This document shows, one piece after another, positions 19,821 to 54,418 of a stretch of DNA of 64,000 nucleotides; positions within the stretch are counted from its first letter, which is position 1, and every line of letters starts with the position of its first letter. This DNA comes from Margaritispora aquatica. Taxonomy: Eukaryota; Ascomycota; Leotiomycetes; Helotiales; Discinellaceae. The notes below the pieces were generated by a model, which saw nothing but the letters and a program-made list of their open reading frames with translations, was not told the DNA's origin and made no database searches. Location: assembly GCA_007644065.1 (NCBI GenBank), contig VJWN01000021.1, positions 138,271 through 202,270 of the forward strand. Direction: 5' to 3'. The translations under genes were made by a program, and so were the position numbers.

Positions 19821-20823
19821 ATGCCTGCTTCAAACGCAAACGCAAACACCGGCACCAAAGGAAAGTCGAATGCAAACCAAACGCAAAGTCCCGCAAAATC
19901 AGCAACAAAACCAAAGCAAACAAACAACGCCATGGCAGGAGCAACAAACAACAACAATAAGAGACCAAGAGGAGCAGCAGCAAACAGCCAAGCTACCGAA
20001 CATGCTGAAACAGCTTCCAATGGTAGCAGGAACAGCTCTCCAAACATGCCTCCTCCTAAGAAGAAATTTAAGCTGAACTTCTCGTGAGTTTGGCTCTTTC
20101 TTAACCCAACTTCTATCTCACCGAGATAAACTGACAATGCAATCCAGCAAGCCCGACGCACCCATGGTGAAGCTCCTCATCGGGGCAGACGAAGTCGCCT
20201 TCGCAATCCATAAAGACGCCATTTGCACTCACTCCTCCTATTTCCGCAGCATCTTCAACGATCACAGCATCACGACCACGGAAGGCGAAGTCGAGACCAA
20301 GATCATCAAGCTCCTCGCCGTCGAACCAAAGGTCTTCGGCCTATTCAGCAATTACATCTACACCCAAGAGGTCGAGCACGACGGAGACACGGCGCTCGAG
20401 GTCATGGAGCTCGCTAAGCTGTGGAGTCATGCTGAGGAGTGGAATGTTCCTGGACTGCAGAACAAGGTGGTGGAGTTCTTGGTCCCTATGGTGGCTGATG
20501 AGCAGTTTGGTGTCGGAATTGGCGGTGATGCTGGTGTTTATGAGGGCAGCTTACTTCAGGAGTTTGTTGAACATGCGTATGCCGCCACGACTGCGACGGT
20601 TGACGGCAACAAGCCTCTTAAAAGACTAGCGGCATTGAAGGTGATGACGCGGGTTTCTCGCGCTGGTGGCTCTCGCTCAATCAGAGAGTGGTCGAATGAT
20701 TTCCCCGAGGGACTAGTCATGGATCTTGCGGAGGCGTTGATTGAGCATTTCAATGGTCTGCCTAAGGGAGCGAGAACACCAAGATTTAATGTCGCTTCTT
20801 ATTGCGTTTGCGAGGAAGATTGA
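19821..20823 (+). CDS. BTB/POZ domain protein with N-terminal nuclear-localisation-like sequence
   Basis: Two exons, 19821-20083 and 20148-20823, with a 64-nt intron, give 312 aa. Residues 1-75 are Asn/Ala/Thr-rich and disordered and end in PPPKKKFKLNF, a good basic nuclear-localisation candidate. The BTB fold follows: VKLLIGADEVAFAIHKDAIC, HSSYFRSIF, IKLLAVEPKVFGLFSNYIYT and VMELAKLWSHAEEWNVPGLQNKV. This is the fungal-type BTB protein without Kelch or other C-terminal partner domain. Such proteins are candidates for dimerisation or Cullin-3 adaptors; function is unknown. The intron is phase 2 immediately before the BTB core, as in the other BTB loci of this window. Confidence 0.85.
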
Positions 20824-21483: not shown

Positions 21484-22333
21484 ATGTCTGATAATTTGTT
21501 TGGTGTCCACGGCCCCGATCTGCAACCGCATATCATCAAACAACCGTTAACCCGGCGGAAAGATCGAAAGTCCTCAACCCTTCGTCGTGCTTCCAAATAT
21601 CGCGCAAACATGGAAGAAAAAGAACAGACTCGAGAGCGGGACGAGCAGGCTCCTATTTTCATGTAACTTGCGCGCGCTCCAAACTTCTGTAACAATGCTG
21701 ACTCCCTGCAGCGGCTCGCAGCTTGTTGTCGAGATCACGGTGTCGATCCCAGACCAATCTCCTGCTGACAACAATCTGCAAACATTCACAATCCACAGAC
21801 ACGTCTTGGCATACTATTCCCTCCTCTTCCGTCGCACTTTTGAGGCGCAAGAGCTGGCACAAGCACAAGGCCAAATATCCACCAACGAAGACCAGAACAC
21901 AAACGCAGAATTTGAATTCGAAATCAACAGCATCACGCCCTCTCACTTCGCCACGATAACCAACTGGCTCTATAACCGCGTCCTTCTCTCTCCCACCGGC
22001 GAGACCATCAACAACATCCTCGCGCTCGCCGAGATCTGGAAGGGTGCTGAATATCTCGAGATCAGCGGTCTACAGCACGAAGTAGTGCAATCAATCGAGA
22101 TCCTGTGCGCAGAGAAAAAGGTCAGCATGTCTGAGCTGGGCGTGTTTTGGAATCTGGTGTACTTTTACAAAGGAGGTGAAAATGCGTTGGCTGAGATGGC
22201 CGTCAGGTCGTTCGTGAAAACGGAGAAGGGCGCTTTCAACTCTATGATTGGCTTGCTGCCGGAGAAGATGGTGGTAGATGTTCTGAGCGCATTGAAAGAC
22301 AATTATGATGACGCAGCTGTTATGGAGATGTAG
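21484..22333 (+). CDS. BTB/POZ domain protein
   Basis: Two exons, 21484-21662 and 21712-22333, with a 49-nt intron (donor GTAACT, branch GCTGAC), give 266 aa. Splicing joins a basic N-terminus (LTRRKDRKSSTLRRASKYR) to the BTB core: GSQLVVEITVSIP, TFTIHRHVLAYYSLLFRRTFE, SHFATITNWLYNRVL and ILALAEIWKGAEYLEISGLQHEV. Intron phase and position match the neighbouring BTB gene. Without splicing, the frame could also open at a downstream ATG at 21694, inside the intron as I model it, so the 5' end needs transcript support. No catalytic domain is visible. Confidence 0.7.
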
Positions 22334-39985: not shown

Positions 39986-42616
39986 TTATACTAGTGTAAT
40001 GACAAATCTCTGCTCGGGATATTCCCGGTCATAAAGCTCCTCAGCACAGAGAGATGCGGCCGTTGCGCGTCCACGACCTTCATTTTCCAATTCGGCACTA
40101 AGCCGATATCCAGCCTCTGTAGGAACTCGATAGAAGAAGTATCCAATTCGGTGAAACACCGACTTGAGTCCCTCGACTTCTTCAATAGCAATGCCGTTTA
40201 TCTGCTCGTGTATATGATCGACCAACGGCAACAGATATGCTGGTCTTGTGACTTCGTCGTCGGTATCGAAGATGATACCTGTCATTCTTCTGGCTAGAAA
40301 TATGTAGGAAATCCCATCCTTGTTTCTAGCTTTTCGCTCGACTTTGAAGGGGTCGAGAGGAACAAGCGCTGAACATGCTAGTTTGATAGTCCCAGCAGAA
40401 ATTTGGCCAAAGAGGTCCTTTCCAGATGGAGTTGTGTGGGCGTCGAGAATTCGGGCAAGTGGAAGTACAGGCGCATCTTTAGATGTGATAGTCATTTCGC
40501 AATCTAGTGATGCCCAAGACCTTTAGATGCGAATATCAGCTGGTAAATTTCAGATATCCAAAAGTAAATAGGCAAAAATGAAGAGGAGAGAAGCTGATCT
40601 CTTTCACTGTGATATATGAAATCCTCGAACGTACCACGTCGGAGCGATATATGGAGAGTATCGCGGGTGAATATGCGGTTTGTTAATGGAAACCGTGTTT
40701 CTGGACCAGCACAGCTGGTCAACCAGATTCTCTCTCCACATCCCTGCCAAATACTGGTCTTGATTCTGATTTTGAGCCTGTCGAGCGAGACCAGCCAACG
40801 CTACCAGCTTGTCGCTTGGGAACGTAAGATTGGCTGCTGAATATTTCATCACAATATCGTACCAGGCTTTCTTCCTTCCTTCATAAGAGTCCAACCCCTC
40901 TGGCCACGCCTCAGATGCGAATTTTGAGTCACATTCCCAGAAGATTCCCAAGGGGCTGAAGAATATCGTCCGTGGTGCTAATATTCTCTCTTGTAACGCC
41001 CCTACTCGAATGCCGATTAGCTCAAGATTTCAGATTTACTGATTACATATAAAGCTAGGAATGAAGCACCTCGGAGCTGGAACAACTTTCTGACCAAATG
41101 TTGTGTGCGATATTGATATCTCGGTTGGGATGACTCTGCCACAGAAAGGATTTTAAAGACTTACATGCCCTACTGGACAGATGACTACGGTCCACAAATG
41201 TTTCAAACTGAGCCATTTTCCTTATGATGAACTTGTGTGCGACCCCGGAAGAAGTTATAGAGCCATGTACATTTACTTTTTGACATAATCCGGGTTGTGC
41301 AAGTTGGCAGCCTCCACGACCATCGGACGATGATGCCGCTGCTAAGTTGATAGTCGAGTTTCCGTATACACTAGTGGAAGAAAATGGAGTTAGACTAAAT
41401 TTCAATGTTAAGGAATAGCTAACTTTTGGCGACGCAGTCGGGATTTATCTAGGGGAACACACTGCAAGCTAGTTGAAAAGATTAACACTAGAGGAGTGTG
41501 GCACTTACTCGCACATCAGTGAAGCTTCCTTTTCCCAGTCTTCAGGTGAGTCTTGAATGATGCATAGAGAGTCTATCCATAGGTAATGTATGCCAAGTTG
41601 TTGTGTGACAGAAATTGCGTCTTGAAATGTTTTGGGGAGATTCTCAACTGGAATTTTCATCTCAAATTCCTTCTGTGTGTTCTTAGTCAATCGTAAGAAC
41701 TTGTACATACCCCAGCAATGACTGAGGGTCGCGTATCTGGGACAGCCTTCCAAATTTTTTGACTTGATAAGCTTGAGATTGGCACCATCAAGAGCAAGGA
41801 ACCTTGTTGGCAGCTGGTGAGATGACCTCCGGTCGCATGAGCTGTGGGTAGCAAGACATGCAGAAAGCCACTGTTTTGCAAGCTCAAATGGTTCAGCTTC
41901 ATCTTGTGGTGGTACTGGTAGAGACAATGGCACACGAGTCTCGGAGAAGAATGCTTTGACAGATGAGTGCTCGGTTCAAATCAGCATTTGGGGCAAGACT
42001 CACATTGACTGCCATCTTGTATCTCTGCTACAAGGAATTCGTCTAATAGTATTTTACTGTAAACGTGATTCCCCGCCTTGAATAAGAAACGAATAACTTG
42101 TGAAGTTTGGGCACGGAAGGTCAATTCATGTGATAGTTTTTTTCCGAGATAGAATAGTCGATGCTGAAATTTCTGGTACTTGATCAAGTCGGCGCCATAC
42201 GGCCTCTTGACACCAGGCTGCATTATTATGTCGCAAAGTTTACAGCCCGCTCGACGAGATGCTTCCCACTCGCAGTAATCATTGTAATGGGATTTTGTGA
42301 CTTGTCCAACATCTGGCAACTTTTCGGCATCACCGCCGACGTATGGCGCTAGAATACTAATAAAATCCTGGCACTTTGGACAGTGTCCGTCAGTGGATAA
42401 CTGCACGGAAAGCTTTTGTCTCTCAATCTCTGCCTCGATAGCTTCCATATTAAGTGTGTCATCTTCGACAACTTTCAACCATGGTGGGTCTCTTTCATCT
42501 CCGAGGTCCAGAGGCTCAGAATTGTCATATTCATTGAACCAATTCTCAAGAGAGCATTGTGTTCTGATGACTCCGAAGCGATGAACTATTTCCACTTTTG
42601 CGACGCTTGAGGCCAT
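39986..42616 (-). CDS. HET (heterokaryon incompatibility) domain protein
   Basis: Five exons: 42616-42004, 41953-41509, 41370-41070, 41020-40635, 40520-39986, giving 759 aa. Introns are 50, 138, 49 and 114 nt. The N-terminal 200 residues include paired cysteines (HCPKC, GCKLC), common before HET domains. The HET core has YATLSHCWG, LPKTFQDAISVTQQLGIHYLWIDSLCIIQDS, VYGNSTINLAAASSSDGRGGC and LQERILAPRTIFF. FWECDSKFASE and APTWSWASLDCE follow, as is usual. In place of the usual RGWALQE the sequence reads RVGALQE. HET proteins trigger or modulate non-self recognition and cell death in filamentous fungi; no NACHT, TPR or ankyrin partner domain is present. The gene looks intact; the junction at 41070/41020 is the least certain. 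Confidence 0.85.
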
Positions 42617-45007: not shown

Positions 45008-45307
45008 ATGTCCTTCCCAAGCTCCCCATGCACATGCGCACCACCACCACCACCATCCCCCCTAATAACTTCCTCGCCCTCCACAGATGCCCCTTTCTTC
45101 CGCAACCTCTCGCACGTGATCTCTCCATCCCTAGAAATAGCTTCATTGTCGTCCTCTAGCTCTAGCGTTGATTCAGAACAAGCGTGGATGGAGACGCATA
45201 CGAGAATTTATGGCGCTGAGGTGGCGGGTAGTTATCGTGGGTGTAATGGCAATAGGGATGGCGATGGCGATGGGGAGGACTTGGATTTTTTGGGAGTTTT
45301 TGGCTGA
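45008..45307 (+). CDS. Small Ser/Pro-rich hypothetical protein
   Basis: ORF of 99 aa starting with MSFPSSPCTCAPPPPPSP, then a Ser-rich middle and a Gly/Asp-rich tail (RDGDGDGEDLDF). No family recognised. The TATA-like box and C/A-rich leader upstream support a transcript, but the coding frame is uncertain and could be an exon of a larger gene or spurious. Confidence 0.3.
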   Translation: MSFPSSPCTCAPPPPPSPLITSSPSTDAPFFRNLSHVISPSLEIASLSSSSSSVDSEQAWMETHTRIYGAEVAGSYRGCNGNRDGDGDGEDLDFLGVFG

Positions 45308-45496
45308 TTTGGACGGTTTTGAGGAAGTGGTTTTTGTTGATGATGGAAGGCTATGGGGTGAGAATAGAAGTAGAAGGGAGTTAATGATGCTACTGTAAGT
45401 TTCTCCTCCAATTTTCCTTGTGTATTCCGTGTTATGATGGTATCAGGATGGATGGAGCATTGATTATAGAAAATAAAAGGATGCCAACCATGCTTA

Positions 45497-46672
45497 CCCT
45501 ACTAAAGCAGGTTCGTTATATATTATAACCAAATTTACTATAACTAGCGGCGATCTCGTTATAATATATAGTGATTCGGTTTCGAGTATAACGAGGTTTT
45601 ATAAGTAGATTTTTACTTCGTTATAATTAATAGTAAGGACAACTATACTACGATTTTAATAGTATATCTTACTATACTTTATAACGGCTTTGTTATATAG
45701 TATAGATATACGTATAGATATCGTATCCGGATTCTTTATATAATATAAAATAGATAATACCCGGATATTTTACTACTCTATTGCCCTTTATTCCCCTTAT
45801 TCCCCTTATTCTTTTTCTTTATTCTCTTTTGAATTCGTTCTCTTATAGATCCAAAGGTAGGTAGCAGATCTAGTAGATCCAAAGGTAGGTTAGGAGTAGA
45901 TCTACAGGTAGTATATAGATCAGAGTGGCCAATAAGCAAGCCAGTTAATCAGCTAGCTTATAAGCTACGCCAAGAAGCCTATTAGCTTAAGAGTTAATTT
46001 ATATTAGCAAGTAAGCGTAGTATTCCTCCGCTAATAGGCTAGCTTCTAAGTTTAAAGGTTAATTTTTATAGTTTTCGAAGTCTATTTATAGTTAAATAAA
46101 GCTCTTTTATTAGTCGAAATCGACGAGTTTTTAATTATACTTTTCGCTTCTACCTTAGTTATATAATATAAGATTTATATTATTATAGTGTAAAGTTTTA
46201 TAAATTTTATACCTTAATTTTATACTTTTATACTCTATATAATTAATTATAACTAAGGATATTATTATATTCTTCGCTATTAGCGAGCTTATAAGCCGCT
46301 GTTAGTAAGTTAACGAAGATTCTTAATTATATCAGCGAGTTAGCTATAAGTTCCTCTCGCTAATTAGCTGACTAACTGACTTATTGGCCACTCTGATATA
46401 GATCGTAGATAGATTCGTAAATAGATTCGTAGATAGATTCGTAGATTCCTAGGGTTTTAAACTTATAGTAAAAGTCGTTGTTTTTAATAATAATACCGTT
46501 ATAAAATATAATAAAGATATATAACGAAGTCCGAAAAGTAGCTATAAAAAAAGTCGAATTTCGTTATAATTAATAGTAAGTACCGTTATAAATAGTTAAA
46601 ATTCCCGTTGCTTTTTATAACGATCGTAATAGTAATATTTCTATATATTATAACGAATCTACTTCCGTAGGG
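45497..46672. mobile_element. AT-rich non-autonomous DNA transposon with TTA target duplication
   Basis: The left end begins CCCTACTAAAGCAGGTTCGT and the right end, read on the other strand, begins CCCTACGGAAGTAGATTCGT. These are imperfect inverted repeats continuing with TTATA. The element is flanked on each side by TTA, the duplication expected of PIF/Harbinger-type insertion; a TA duplication with one unmatched base is an alternative. The interior is AT-rich, has no coding frame, and contains a second element at 45921-46395. Superfamily assignment is inference from the duplication alone. Confidence 0.65.
45921..46395. mobile_element. hAT-like MITE nested in the TTA element
   Basis: The 475-bp element starts CAGAGTGGCCAATAAG and ends in the exact complement of these 16 bases, with further imperfect inverted repeat inward. 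It is flanked by a perfect 8-bp direct repeat, atatagat, at 45913-45920 and 46396-46403. An 8-bp duplication with CAG-starting inverted ends is diagnostic for the hAT superfamily. There is no transposase, so it is a miniature element moved in trans. Confidence 0.85.
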
Positions 46673-46675
46673 TTA

Positions 46676-46790
46676 CACTAGCTTATAAGCTCGCTAACAG
46701 CGAAAGTATGATAATATACCTAGTTATTATTAACTCTAAAAGTAATAAACCAATATATAAAATTTATCACTATATAATGAAAAGATAATG
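46676..46790. repeat. Truncated inverted copy of the hAT-like MITE interior
   Basis: The segment beginning agcttataagctcgctaaca resembles the reverse complement of the nested MITE interior near 46200-46310 (cggcttataagctcgctaat), and similarity continues through the AT-rich stretch. It has no inverted-repeat ends. It lies immediately outside the right end of the TTA element. Confidence 0.5.
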
Positions 46791-47188
46791 GTCAAGTAGC
46801 GAAGGCGAGAATAGTCGGTAGAATCTAAGCTCGGCCAATCAAAAAGCTTTAGGTAAGGTAGTGTATAGTATTACAAACTTTTTCAGAAAAAACCTAAGCT
46901 AACAAATTTACCTTCAAACTGACTTCATAAACCGTAAATATCATACCTCGAGTTATTAGCGAGTTTAACAACGCAAGAGTGCAGAAATTGAGGCGCCAGA
47001 GCCAACGAACAAGGCAGTATGGTGAGCAATGCTCCCAGGCCAGTGAGTGTCTTGGTAATGTAGGCTGGTAGAGCACTAACTACTGATAATAAGATTGCGT
47101 TGAAACCGTATATAGGACCAATAGCACGGATATATTAGCGTAGGCCACAAAGGTGGCTTGGAGAGACATGCTCTTGCTGGCGATAGCG
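46791..47188. other. Intergenic, no gene seen
   Basis: Short sequence between the transposon cluster and the deaminase gene 3' end. Nothing recognised. Confidence 0.35.
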
Positions 47189-48688
47189 CTAATTGCTTCC
47201 AACTTGCTCCCCGACACAAAAGATTTGTATCTTAACGTTCATAAAACACTTACGGAATTGTTTTATAAAGGCCGAACAGTCAGAACACATCCGCAATTTG
47301 CTGACCGTGATAGTCGCAGGTGGTGGACGTGGAAGAACGTCACGCAAGCTCTTAAGTTGCGACCAATCCATAATTGCAGCTGAACAATCATCCTCGTCGT
47401 AAATCCAATGCCGATCCATATAGTACGCAATTAGCTGCTTCTCTACATGGGATGCGCAGCTCCGTGAGACGTCAAAGCCGATGGTTCTGCAAAGATTTTG
47501 TGCTTTCTCCGTCCATATCTCATTGTTCAGAACATCCACCCTATAACCCTGCGAGTAGCCACTCATTGCACTTATGACAGGATATTGCAATCCTCGATCA
47601 AGCCTCGCGAATGCTTTGACTTCCTCCCCTCGTCCGATCTGATAGCTTGTATCGGCCCTGTAATACCAAAGCAAGTTAGGTGATATCTTGCCAAAATACC
47701 CTTGATGGATTTGCAATGACTCCATCCCGTTGAGGGTATTCCGGCCTATGGATTCGTGTCGTGTCAAGCAAGCCAAGATTTGTTTCCGCTTTCTGTTCGC
47801 GTCCGGGCGTACCATAACTATACCGCCTGCTCGAGATATACGCTCTTCTTCATTCCGTTCAGAATCAGCTGCGAAATCAGCTGCACGGTGTCCATTAGCA
47901 TCCTCTACATATATATCTACACCACTATCGATGAGGAATTGAACAGTTTCAAGGCGTCCCCATAGAGCGGCCTCCATTAATGCAGTTCTTCCATAATAGT
48001 TCCTCTGGTCAATAGAGACTCCCTTTTCTTTTAACCATTTAACAGTATCCAACCCAGCATCTTCAGCTGCGGCAAGAAGGATCCCGTTGTTCCCTTCGTT
48101 ATCAACATTATTCGCAAATGAGTCTTTGGGATATTCGCGGAAAAGAGCTTTGAGTTGTTCTATATCCTTTAGACAGCATGATGAAAGATAAAGTTTGGAG
48201 CGAAATGATTGGTCTTTCATGAAACCTTTCCATTCATCATACGGATCGGTTGGATGTACGTCGGGTTCTTCGGAATCAGATAATCTCATACTATTCAGAG
48301 AGTCTGTGATCGCGAATTCATCTTTTGCGGCAGCCTTATCGTTCTCACCTAGCCAGCTCGAGTTCTGGTGTTCATCGAGCAGACGCCGTGGCTGAAAACT
48401 CAGCAAAAGAGGATCATCGAGTCGGCCTTGGTGTGTCACAGTGTAGATTCTGCTTTCTTCTTTGTCCAACTCCCAGCCAAAAGGGACAGTGAAGTCGGAT
48501 TCTTCGTCAGGATACAAGATTCGATAGGATTGGCCACCAGATATATCATAGCAATCAGCAGAACGGCGCTGCATTTCTCTGGGGAGTTTTCCGACACCAT
48601 GCCCATGGGAACTGAGGCAGAAGGGGCACTTGACTCGGAGAGTTTTTGCAGACCAACAGAGCACTAATGCTGTCGGAAGAGCTTCCAT
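47189..48688 (-). CDS. Ankyrin-repeat protein with C-terminal nucleic-acid deaminase-like domain
   Basis: Single exon of 499 aa with ATG at 48688. Three parts are visible. (1) A Cys/His-rich N-terminus, VKCPFCLSSHGHGVG...SADC (about 19-47), is a likely zinc-binding motif. (2) Ankyrin repeats around 190-270 include GRTALMEAALWGRLETVQFL and DANGHRAADFA. (3) A C-terminal cytidine-deaminase-fold-like domain follows, with HVE at 414-416 in SCASHVEKQLIAYY (zinc His and catalytic Glu) and CSDC at 468-471 in SKLRMCSDCSAF (zinc cysteines). The H-x-E and C-x2-C spacing is that of the DYW/toxin-type deaminases known from fungal genomes. The substrate (RNA, DNA or nucleotide) is unknown. All zinc and catalytic residues are present. 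It sits beside a transposon cluster and near a HET gene, an accessory-type setting. Confidence 0.75.
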   Translation of the reverse strand: MEALPTALVLCWSAKTLRVKCPFCLSSHGHGVGKLPREMQRRSADCYDISGGQSYRILYPDEESDFTVPFGWELDKEESRIYTVTHQGRLDDPLLLSFQPRRLLDEHQNSSWLGENDKAAAKDEFAITDSLNSMRLSDSEEPDVHPTDPYDEWKGFMKDQSFRSKLYLSSCCLKDIEQLKALFREYPKDSFANNVDNEGNNGILLAAAEDAGLDTVKWLKEKGVSIDQRNYYGRTALMEAALWGRLETVQFLIDSGVDIYVEDANGHRAADFAADSERNEEERISRAGGIVMVRPDANRKRKQILACLTRHESIGRNTLNGMESLQIHQGYFGKISPNLLWYYRADTSYQIGRGEEVKAFARLDRGLQYPVISAMSGYSQGYRVDVLNNEIWTEKAQNLCRTIGFDVSRSCASHVEKQLIAYYMDRHWIYDEDDCSAAIMDWSQLKSLRDVLPRPPPATITVSKLRMCSDCSAFIKQFRKCFMNVKIQIFCVGEQVGSN

Positions 48689-49790
48689 TATCGTTACTAT
48701 TTGTGCGTGGTAGAGGAGGTGGACGTAGAAGTCGCTGTCTTGGTTGATATATTGTGGAGTGTCAGCAATGGATATATGTAAGGAATGTGTACTCTAGCGT
48801 ATTTGTGTCACCATATGAGTCACTGTTAATGTCTCGCCAATTGTCATCACAGTCTTGGGTACTAACACGTGCTGATGTAGGCAGTCCTCAACCCATCGAT
48901 AAGGGCATCTTGTAATTCATTAGCAATCTGTGCCAGAGGATTCCGCTTAAAATCCTGGCCTAAAATCCGAAGAAGTTCGACGTCCTGGGATTTTATTGTG
49001 TAGCAGAACGTAGTTCAAAGAGATATGGAAATAGAAAACTAAAAACGGGCATTTCTTACCATAAGGAGGGGTCCAATTGAATCTAAAATAAGCTACTCTA
49101 TAAACTCAAGTAGCCAGCAATGACGCAATAAAAATTTTCGGAATTAAGAGGTCAGAAGTATTCGGAAAAGGTATAAAATAAATAAGTTTATAGATTTAAA
49201 TTCGCTTAAACTCGAAGTATTTAAGGTACGATTAGTTTCGTTACAGCATATATTTCGAGACAAGAATAGACCTTGTTGGTAATATCAGGATTATCAATGT
49301 AGTATTAGCAGCAAGGTTAGTATTAGTATTTATATAATCGCATTAGCACTTCTATCTGTAAATAGAAATATAACGAACTCTAGACTTCTATCTATCTACC
49401 ATTTAAAATGTCAGGTGGGATAGTACTTTCTAAAAACGAATTTTATATGTTTTCAGCATTAGCTCTATAGCTAGTGCTATTAGCTTTAATGGAAATAAAT
49501 TTTAAGTAGAAGCTAGTGCGAAAGTTCGAGGGGTTGCGAATTCAAAAAGATAGAAAAAGAAGATCGTCTCGTCCTTCTACGTTGGAATTGTAACTTCTCT
49601 GCTTTTGTCAATCATCAGTATAGTAGATGACCAAATCCAAGCAAATCAATAAATGCTCAGGTCAGATTAACACTTTTTGTAATTCGATACCCACCAGACC
49701 GATGTAATCTATCTATCTAGCTTCGCCAAAAACAAGAGCAACCGTAATGATAAAACGACCCAGCAAGAAAAGAACAAGCAATTGGTAATT
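48689..49790. other. AT-rich intergenic region
   Basis: The part from 49050 to 49560 is AT-rich with repeated short words (e.g. agtgctattagc-like), suggestive of an old RIP-degraded repeat, but I found no inverted ends or coding frame. The rest is flanking DNA of the two neighbours. Confidence 0.35.
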
Positions 49791-51851
49791 CTAATCCTCA
49801 TCATCATCCGCGTCGTGGTAATATCCATCAGTATCTTGCTGTTCCCGCTCAACCATCAAACGCCTCGCTTCAGCAGCTGCTGCCGCCACATCAACAATAA
49901 CGGACTCGCCAGCACCACGATCAAACCCACCAGTAGCAGTAGCAGTTTCGCCACCCAGCAAGATCTCCTTCTCCATCTCAACGGCATCATCCAAACCCGC
50001 GCCGCTTCTTGAGCCCAAGAACCCGGCAACGATATCGTCAGGCAGAGGAGCACTACTCGCTTGCTTTCCTCGGTGCGCAGGTGTGGGTGTAGGAGCAACC
50101 TCATCACCACCAAAGCCAAAGCCGCGCTGTCTATCAAAAGCAATAGTTGAGGCAAAACTCTCGCCAAACGACATATTAGCATTGTCCTTGGTGCTGCTAT
50201 CATGACGTCTAAATCTCGCACCGCGATCGTTGAATCTACCAAAGGACTCCCTAGACGCAGCAGCCATGATATCATCGTCGTCTGAATCGAGGGTTAGATC
50301 AATGAACTGAGATGCTGCACCATTGCGCTTGTTGATACCAGCTGCAGTCTTGCGATCCAAGCTCTCCATGGAATGAGTCGCTTGTCTCTCTTTCTCGACC
50401 TGGCGGTCTCGCTTACGTTCATCCTTGGCCTTGGCCTTGTATATGCGCTTCTCCTTCTTCTCTTTCTTTGTCTGCTTTCGCGTCTTCTTTTTCTCCTCGC
50501 GATGAAATCGATATCCAGATTCAGAACGACGCTTCTTCCTCTTCTTGGTTGGTGTTGAGTCCGAGTCTGCACTGTCTTCACTGTCGTCGCTGTCGTCACC
50601 ACTGTCCTCGTCATCATCGGAGATATCAAGAGATGAAAATGAGCGTTTCTTAGACGAGCTCGGCCCTTCGCCGTTGGACGTGTTGAAGGAGCTGCTGGGA
50701 GATGATTTGCACTTGCGCTTCCCCTTCTTCGAGATATCGGATTTGAAAGACATGGTTGAGCCGATATAGTTCTGCGCTCGCTTCTTAGCAGCTTCGTGAA
50801 TAGCGTTGACAGTTGGTTCCATCCAACCACTTTGGTTCGCCTTAGCGGATTTCCGTCTCTTGCTGCCGCTACCCGTGCCACCTCGATTCTTCTCGTCATC
50901 CGAGGAATCCGCTGCAAGGTCGAATTCAGCTTGCGCTTCATCGTCCTCGCTGTCTTCGTCGAGATCAATGGCATGCTGCTTCTTGGACTTGATAGGGGTG
51001 TGTAACTTCCCACCATTACCGCTCTTACCAAATAGCTGACTCGCTCCACCTACAGCCCCACGGGCGTTGAGACCAGCTTTGACATTGAAAGCACCAAAGG
51101 AGTGCGAGTAAGACGTGTTTTGAGTGTCATCGACTACCTCCTTGCGAGTAGCTGGCATCTCGGCAGATGGACGAGCAGGGTGCTTAGACGTAGATCCAGT
51201 TTTATTCGCAGAGGAGTTCGGTCTTGCTTTACTTGCTGTTGCACCGACGAACAAGCTATCCTCGTCCGATTTCTCACTATCTGAGTTGACATTGACCACA
51301 TCCTCACTCAACTTGAAGCGGCCCTTCTGAGCTCCAGCTTTCTTGTTTGCATTTTGAAACGCGGTATCTGGAAGCGAGCCACTTGACTGTGGGGTGACAT
51401 ACGATTTGCGAAATGGATCAAGGCCGCTTCTTTGTAAGGGCGTGAGGCTCGATGTCGGGAACGCTTTTCTGGTGAGTGATTGCAGGCGTCCGAGGTGACG
51501 TTCTAGGATCTCGGATATTTCGTCTTGGTCGATTTCGGTTTCTCGGGTTTTGGTGATGACTGCGGTGAGGAAATCATCGTAGGCGCTGGCTTGAGTTTTG
51601 AGAAGCGCTTCGATCGATTCAAGGTCAAGCTGAAAGTGAGGTATTAGTGAGGGAGTGTGGTTTGAGTGAGAAAGGATGCTTGGATGGAGCGAGTCGTGAA
51701 AGTTGTCAAGAATGAAAGTGAAATCTGGTGAGACCTCTCGAGAGTGAGGCTCTTGCTTTCATCGTTGAGATGATAGAGAAGGTCGGAACTAAATGTAGTA
51801 GGAAGAATAGATGCATACCTTGTCAGCAGACGCTGCAGCTTTTCGATTCAT
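49791..51851 (-). CDS. Highly charged, probably nuclear protein with a SUMO-interaction-like motif
   Basis: Two exons, 51851-51819 (11 codons) and 51629-49791, with a 189-nt phase-0 intron, give 623 aa. The first 70 residues look helical (LESIEALLKTQASAYDDFL, DEISEILERHLGRLQSLTRKA). The rest is low complexity: acidic runs (DDDEDSGDDSDDSEDSADSD), basic runs (KKRKKRRSE, EEKKKTRKQTKKEKKEKR) and Gly/Ser stretches. FIDLTLDSDDDD is a textbook SUMO-interacting motif, a hydrophobic core followed by acids. This composition suggests a nuclear or nucleolar protein. I do not recognise the family and give no function. Confidence 0.75.
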
Positions 51852-53426: not shown

Positions 53427-54418
53427 TCAAAGACCATTCACAAAGCCCAAAACCCTCTTCACCAACCCCTGCACAACAACCTCATCATTCTTCTCCAAAT
53501 TATGGCTCGCGCCCTCCAACACCCCGGAGTTAACCTCATCCACGGTCCCCTTGCCCAACTTCACGAACCCAATCCACCGGTCCACCAGCGCCTGCTTATC
53601 AATACTCTTCGGGACATGCTCATCGGCTCCCGAGTAGAGGATACACAGCGGGCGTCCCACCGGCAAGGCCCCAAAGCTCTTCATGAGCTGCTCGTCCTTC
53701 AGATCCGAGCTAAAGTAGTCGTCGTCGCCATCATGGTTCGGACTCGCAACCGAGAGCCAGCGCTTCGCGGTCACGGGACAGGGGCTCTGCTTCCCGGGGA
53801 GGATCTCGTCGCCTTGGCCCGCGTCGACCATCTCCTGGGCTTTCTTGCACGTCTCGTCGTAGTCGGCCTGCTTGGTCGACATCAAGATGGCCTCGCGATC
53901 ACTGACCGGTGCTTGGATGATGCCTGCGTCGATAGGCTCGCGGCCCTCGTGGCCTTTGCCGGTGAAATACTCCATCACGTCCTGGCAGCCGGTCGAGTGG
54001 CCCATCAGGATGATCTTGCCGGGCTTGAGGGCCCGGAAATACGCCACGGCTTTGGAGAGCTCCTTGACGTCTGTTTGCAGCGACGAGGTTCCCCAGCCGT
54101 TGTAGGACGAGGAGAGAAGCACTTGGGCGATCCCCCATGTGGGTGGGAGGGCCTCGGAGAGAGTGGCGGGGTAAGGGACCGTGAGGAGCCCATCGAAGAG
54201 ACCGCCGATGAAGATTATGAGGTTTTGGGATGGTGGAAGTGTGGGCTTGGGGATATATTCAAATGCTGCCAAGCGAGATGCCTATTTTTGTCAGCTCGCT
54301 TGTCCCACTCAGGTTCTTTTATCATTTTTTGCTGTGCAATACAATAAATATATCATGTGCCATAAGTGGAGGACCAACATACATAAGGATGCAAAACGCC
54401 ATTTCTCGCCCCAGCCAT
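53427..54418 (-). CDS. Alpha/beta hydrolase of the DUF1749 (SidJ-like) family
   Basis: Two exons, 54418-54383 and 54281-53427, with a 101-nt intron ending GAGCTGACAAAAATAG, give 296 aa. Splicing joins NGVLHPY to ASRLAAFEYIP, as in the family N-terminus. LIIFIGGLFDGLL carries the oxyanion-type turn. The nucleophile elbow is GHSTG with Ser near residue 108, the acid is probably in LYSGADEHVP, and the His is in LEGASHNLEKND. Family members include SidJ of Aspergillus fumigatus, which hydrolyses fusarinine-type siderophores; other members are uncharacterised. Siderophore esterase is therefore a guess. An in-frame ATG six codons upstream (MLVRT) is an alternative start. Confidence 0.85.

Follow-up and report, generated by a model that had tools for sequence, protein, structure and literature searches.

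DYW editors are described as carrying a PG motif, a second zinc site of the CxC type and a DYW end. The BaDTF2 toxins are without these marks and carry an SGW motif, and SsdA deaminates single-stranded DNA (ssDNA) with only residual activity on RNA (according to the accessible part of PMC7901873). Fungi themselves edit RNA from adenosine to inosine (A to I), and the OTT_1508-like proteins OLD-1 and OLD-2 of Neurospora crassa, whose centre is HxE...CxxC, are antiviral editors of this kind, as stated in the accessible sections of PMC12754623. Ankyrin-fused fungal members of the DYW family have already been mentioned in print (PMC11789416, in the excerpt available). Here we describe a fungal ankyrin-deaminase encoded in a stretch of 64,000 nucleotides from Margaritispora aquatica (contig VJWN01000021.1, positions 138,271 to 202,270; hereafter the window), which is part of a 42.36-Mb genome in 49 contigs.

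The protein is of a kind already known and joins a recorded fungal family of ankyrin-SsdA_C proteins. Database members such as P0048 (Aspergillus nidulans AN3871.2) have the same order of Cys/His module, ankyrin repeats and SsdA_C deaminase, but these fungal ankyrin-deaminases share only about 25–31% identity with the window protein. Many of them exceed it by about 85–110 aa and have an additional charged segment inserted between HxE and CxxC, and some entries are titled 'DYW family of nucleic acid deaminases-domain-containing protein'. A literature search of incomplete coverage found no experimental study of an ankyrin-SsdA_C protein.

In total, 113 homologues were found in the database, and 92 of them were aligned with the window protein (alignment A1, 93 rows). 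The 21 left out comprise 18 ankyrin proteins without a deaminase and three partial or fused sequences (P0023, P0035 and P0067). Because the search collects candidates through 5-residue words in common, it favours strongly conserved motifs, among them GRTALMEAALWGR. The homologues named in the search spread over Leotiomycetes, Sordariomycetes, Lecanoromycetes, Dothideomycetes, Eurotiomycetes and Geoglossomycetes, the classes to which we take these names to belong. As judged from the alignment, the family is conserved across several ascomycete classes. In P0067, from a Geoglossum metagenome-assembled genome, a Radical-SAM domain is joined ahead of the ankyrin-deaminase, probably through a gene-model fusion.

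The gene and its parts have the following window coordinates:

47189–48688, minus strand: ankyrin-SsdA_C deaminase gene, a single intact open reading frame (ORF) of 499 aa, with a full-length homologue that is just as long and 82% identical
48551–48628, minus strand: motif C21-x2-C24-x3-H28-x-H30...C46, residues 21–46, probably a zinc-binding N-terminal module
47849–48223, minus strand: ankyrin region of about three repeats, residues 156–280 (Ank_4, Ank_2 and Ank matches; helices in the model)
47954–47992, minus strand: GRTALMEAALWGR, residues 233–245, the most conserved segment of the family (the best 15-column stretch starts at 233)
47204–47707, minus strand: deaminase-fold domain, residues 328–495
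47555–47563, minus strand: SGY, residues 376–378, counterpart of the BaDTF2 motif SGW
47441–47449, minus strand: HVE, residues 414–416, putative zinc ligand and catalytic glutamate by analogy with the superfamily (both H and E kept in all 93 rows)
47276–47287, minus strand: CSDC, residues 468–471, putative zinc ligands (C468 in 88 and C471 in 89 of 93 rows)

This is probably a complete single-exon gene: in length and start it resembles its closest homologues, and no intron is needed. Its position agrees with a preliminary description of this DNA, and genome searches revealed one intact copy.

The same description had pointed to an intact deaminase-like domain holding H414-x-E416 and C468-x2-C471, and both the domain and the residues were borne out. 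The Pfam profile PF24120 (SsdA_C) matched residues 373–420 with 32.5 bits against a cut-off of 27, and it matched 86 of the 93 aligned members, the window protein among them (E ≤ 0.1; family best 4e-27). Where the cysteines are not kept, C468 is replaced or absent in five rows (two Arg, three gaps) and C471 is a gap in four; the six rows that miss at least one cysteine come from proteins of 274–420 aa. Because of the PF24120 match, the 86 matching members and the four retained residues, the catalytic set goes beyond chance. Two outcomes had been named beforehand as fatal to the idea, namely absence of the fold and loss of HxE/CxxC in orthologues, and neither was found.

Modelling agrees with the profile. 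The best fold match of the domain model lies on the SsdA side (PDB 7jtu, VIA-align 2). A predicted deaminase fold with an intact catalytic set, fused to ankyrin repeats, is thus supported. Searches with more of the protein led elsewhere: matches through the ankyrin region filled the best 60 of 443 in a PDB sequence search with the whole protein and the best 60 of 586 in one with alignment A2. Foldseek with the full model placed ankyrin-type entries in the best 50 of 1118 rows, and the PADLOC and NCBIfam matches of the protein were confined to the same region. The 180-aa domain alone gave two weak PDB sequence matches, to a latex protein at E 0.02 and to plant DYW1 at E 0.029.

As far as motifs and profiles tell, the protein is a member of a fungal group that stands closer to SsdA than to the DYW editors. 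With SsdA and BaDTF2 (PDB 7jtu and 9c63; PF24120) it shares the profile above cut-off, the best fold match, an SG-aromatic motif before the HxE helix and the absence of the PG, CxC and DYW marks. In contrast to them, it comes from a fungus and is joined to a Cys/His module and ankyrin repeats, has SGY in place of SGW and no secretion domain in Pfam, and shows 21% identity over 109 aligned residues. No Pfam immunity family was matched among the 29 window ORFs scanned, out of 59 with at least 120 aa. Since no toxin system was seen near the gene, we do not class the protein with the BaDTF2 toxins.

The preliminary description had placed the deaminase in a DYW/toxin-like type, and the DYW part of this assignment did not hold. 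The PG box, the CxC second zinc site and the C-terminal DYW are all absent; SGY stands in the PG place, and the chain ends CSAFIKQFRKCFMNVKIQIFCVGEQVGSN, 28 residues past C471. DYW_deaminase (PF14432) was not listed for the protein at E ≤ 10 in Pfam, where filters drop most matches above 0.1. Among the 93 members it falls outside the 25 families shown of 47, and is therefore matched by at most one member. A DYW search of the fungus's own genome was empty; control genomes gave no signal either, so this result carries no weight. The PPR-DYW editors of plants and protists (OTP86 DYW domain, 7o4f) are alike in the deaminase fold, in HxE...CxDC and in joining a repeat domain to a C-terminal deaminase, but they differ in their PPRs, in the three marks and in the profile. 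Only ankyrin repeats, and no PPR repeats, matched the window protein in Pfam. APOBEC_N was matched by 2 of the 93 members (E ≤ 0.1).

Ahead of the deaminase, the Cys/His-rich N-terminus and the ankyrin repeats of the preliminary description were both found. C21, C24, H28, H30 and C46 are kept in 63/63, 64/64, 62/64, 64/66 and 70/71 of the rows with a letter there, which suggests that the motif is a zinc-binding module. Ank_4 matched with E 1e-14, best at residues 204–253 (Pfam). The claim that these repeats target the enzyme fared worse: the repeats exist, but such a role is doubtful because part of their surface, far from being variable, is conserved more strongly than any other segment in the family. 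Mean conservation over 15 columns reaches 0.90 from residue 233 in the ankyrin region, against 0.80 from residue 413 in the HxE helix.

Within this segment, R234 is kept in 92/92 rows, M238 and L242 in 93/93 each and W243 in 88/93. We take R234, L242 and W243 to be repeat positions 5, 13 and 14, which contact targets in designed ankyrin proteins; positions 2 and 3 of the GRTALMEAALWGR repeat, presumably contacts there as well, vary across the aligned rows. In the 70 rows below 40% identity, identity to the window protein is 63% in the repeat core (230–257), 53% in the catalytic helices and 30% in the whole deaminase. Even with the bias of the 5-residue words, the conserved ankyrin surface looks unlike a variable recognition surface or targeting device.

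Our preferred reading, to which we give a probability of roughly 45%, is that the protein is a zinc-dependent base deaminase of the SsdA/DYW branch, nearest to its SsdA side, which fungi use for their own ends in intracellular conflict. Fungi would have taken over an intracellular nucleic-acid base deaminase, and the enzyme would be active, turning cytosine into uracil. Since SsdA acts on ssDNA and its RNA activity is residual, ssDNA is our first guess at the substrate; by this analogy, DNA seems at least as likely as RNA. Such ssDNA might be exposed in replication, transcription or invading elements, with RNA as the second candidate. The zinc-type module at the N-terminus may, together with the invariant ankyrin surface, restrain the deaminase or dock it to one conserved partner, and not choose sequence targets. 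The conflict could be with selfish elements or viruses, or the enzyme could be a damaging effector released on a self/non-self mismatch. This role rests on the spread of the family, on possible transfer (see below) and on opinion about fungal deaminases published in PMC3482391, in the part accessible.

Several observations weigh against this reading. SGY replaces SGW in this protein, as it does in roughly a third of family members (SGW in 50, SGY in 32, and another sequence or a gap in 11 of 93 rows). OTT_1508_deam is weakly matched by 15 of the 93 members (E ≤ 0.1, best 4.8e-4). By the rule of VIA-align 2, SsdA-side entry 9c63 (11.1) is tied with the DYW entry 7o4f (10.3), and only 7jtu scores more than 1 above the latter. 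With the domain model, no Foldseek hit reached E ≤ 0.001, which leaves VIA-align 2 and Pfam as the support for the fold. The full-length model has a predicted template modelling score of 0.64, and domain packing, hence autoinhibition, stays conjecture.

Repeat-induced point mutation (RIP) mutates repeated fungal DNA from C to T. A bolder proposal, which we hold to be speculative and unlikely, is that filamentous ascomycetes retain, and pass from one class to another, a cytosine deaminase for DNA that is of bacterial-toxin type and is held by a fixed ankyrin surface. It would be a mutator of invading or repeated DNA or a suicide weapon on failed self/non-self recognition, and a counterpart of APOBEC defence apart from the RIP methyltransferase pathway. 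We also considered the missing RIP deaminase and dropped it: no Neurospora occurs among the named hits, a weak argument since only some hits are named.

An enzyme that edits DNA would give fungi an APOBEC-like mutator, and one that edits RNA a further editing machinery. From the SG-aromatic motif, unaccompanied by DYW marks, a clear prediction follows, with ssDNA as the foremost substrate, and the invariant ankyrin surface suggests a single partner. The SsdA-type domain is also of practical interest, since base editors have been made from SsdA itself (PMC11789416 and PMC12628173, in their accessible parts).

Among the alternatives, a DYW-like C-to-U RNA editor, brought to transcripts by the ankyrin repeats or by a partner, survives best and is still rather unlikely. 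The order of repeat domain and C-terminal deaminase is shared with the PPR-DYW editors, but the absence of the three marks and of any PPR match, together with the unlisted DYW profile, argues against it.

It is improbable that the protein edits RNA from A to I in antiviral signalling, in the manner of the OTT_1508-like OLD proteins of Neurospora, which correct a stop codon of a neighbouring regulator. Like the OLD proteins, it is a fungal deaminase with an HxE...CxxC centre, and the 15 weak matches in the family speak for this relationship. However, OTT_1508_deam (PF14441) was not listed for the window protein itself at E ≤ 10 (Pfam), SsdA_C is far stronger in the family, and no linked C2H2 zinc-finger regulator was seen among the 29 ORFs scanned.

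Two features of the surroundings bear on the remaining explanations:

45497–46674, no strand: nested dispersed repeats, RIP-like in composition, some 0.5 kb past the 3′ end of the gene
41505–41933, minus strand: ORF whose product matches the N-terminal half of a HET domain (PF06985, E 6.4e-21, profile positions 1–73 of 146), its link to the deaminase being putative

The gene had been placed next to transposons and near a HET gene. The repeats beside it are real: 45300–47189 gave 108 match pieces genome-wide, itself included. Three 500-base stretches (45501–47000) have TpA/ApT of 1.41–1.49 and (CpA+TpG)/(ApC+GpT) of 0.23–0.48, compared with 0.72 and 1.29 for the whole window. The other flank is AT-rich too (49001–49500, GC 0.31), and the deaminase gene itself has ordinary RIP indices. 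The outer repeat, 45497–46674, is interrupted by a repeat of about 475 bases (45921–46395; ten other genomic copies, 91–95% identity).

A decayed relative lies on contig C6 (266750–267043; L002:1501–1794). It matches residues 170–267, in the ankyrin part, with 44% identity and five stops, and its composition is RIP-like (TpA/ApT 1.37, (CpA+TpG)/(ApC+GpT) 0.63).

The HET gene is indeed near, 5.5 kb downstream on the same strand, and 2.0 kb separate the relative on C6 from another HET match, with a 721-aa HET ORF nearby (L017:5713–7878). We nonetheless find it quite improbable that the deaminase acts as effector for its HET neighbour in a heterokaryon-incompatibility pair. Under uniform placement, the chance of such nearness is 0.040 for the window and 0.016 for C6, and in one of the 113 homologues, P0035 (Cadophora sp. 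DSE1049), a C-terminal deaminase piece (82% identity) is joined to a HET domain, by true fusion or gene-model error. On the other hand, the genome holds at least 151 HET match pieces, so nearness to a HET gene, like that to the repeats, is weak evidence for the role in genome defence or self/non-self conflict that the preliminary description had suggested. HET genes may cluster, and if they gather with repeats in accessory regions, the uniform model overstates the signal; at both loci nearness is only a hint. The HET genes concerned show no special similarity (P0035 shares 42% with the window gene over 59 aa and 31% with the C6 gene over 165 aa), and gene order differs, with the deaminase first in the window and the HET gene first on C6. 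That the gene is a mobile or decaying accessory one which no longer has a function, as the five stops on C6 and a long-branched Oculimacula copy might hint, is very improbable, given 499 codons open beside repeats of strong RIP-like composition and catalytic motifs kept in 93/93 and 88–89/93 rows.

The copies of Stachybotrys (75%) and Trichoderma austrokoningii (73%) are more similar to the window protein than those of the leotiomycetes Pseudogymnoascus (66%) and Oculimacula (57%). In a 24-row tree, Trichoderma and Stachybotrys fall inside a 14-row clade with the window, and Pseudogymnoascus outside (bootstrap 90, SH-like approximate likelihood ratio test 96, not starred). As a yardstick we used the gene DUF1749 (53427–54272), which among the best 120 of 613 hits has 54–69% identity to named Leotiomycetes (Mollisia 69%, Acephala 67%, Lachnellula 65–67%, Cadophora gregata 59%) and no Sordariomycete name, the classes of these names being our assumption. 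Horizontal transfer involving Sordariomycete copies is a fair reading of these sequences, not proven.

Against transfer, the tree puts Oculimacula beside the window, with a long branch (0.92), and most rows of the tree are without a species name. Holding Pseudogymnoascus and the window together was rejected at p 0.048, in a test chosen after an earlier tree had been seen. Paralogy is possible instead, and the Sticta sequence may come from a contaminant. When prokaryote genomes were scanned for relatives, 36 pattern matches appeared, none of them confirmed, so no bacterial source was traced.

A second, more distant deaminase-like gene lies on contig C49 (L012:682–2277, minus strand). Its product of 531 aa has HVE, CANC and ISG motifs and a long basic tail, no ankyrin match, and an SsdA_C score of 18 bits, below cut-off; five homologues were found. 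It is related to the window family (hhalign probability 98.5, E 3.4e-15).

Upstream of the deaminase gene, the ORF 49791–51311 (minus strand, 506 codons) has acidic and lysine-rich stretches and no Pfam match at E 0.001. Elsewhere in the window, two adjoining ORFs with BTB domains occupy 20137–20823 and 21587–22333 (plus strand).
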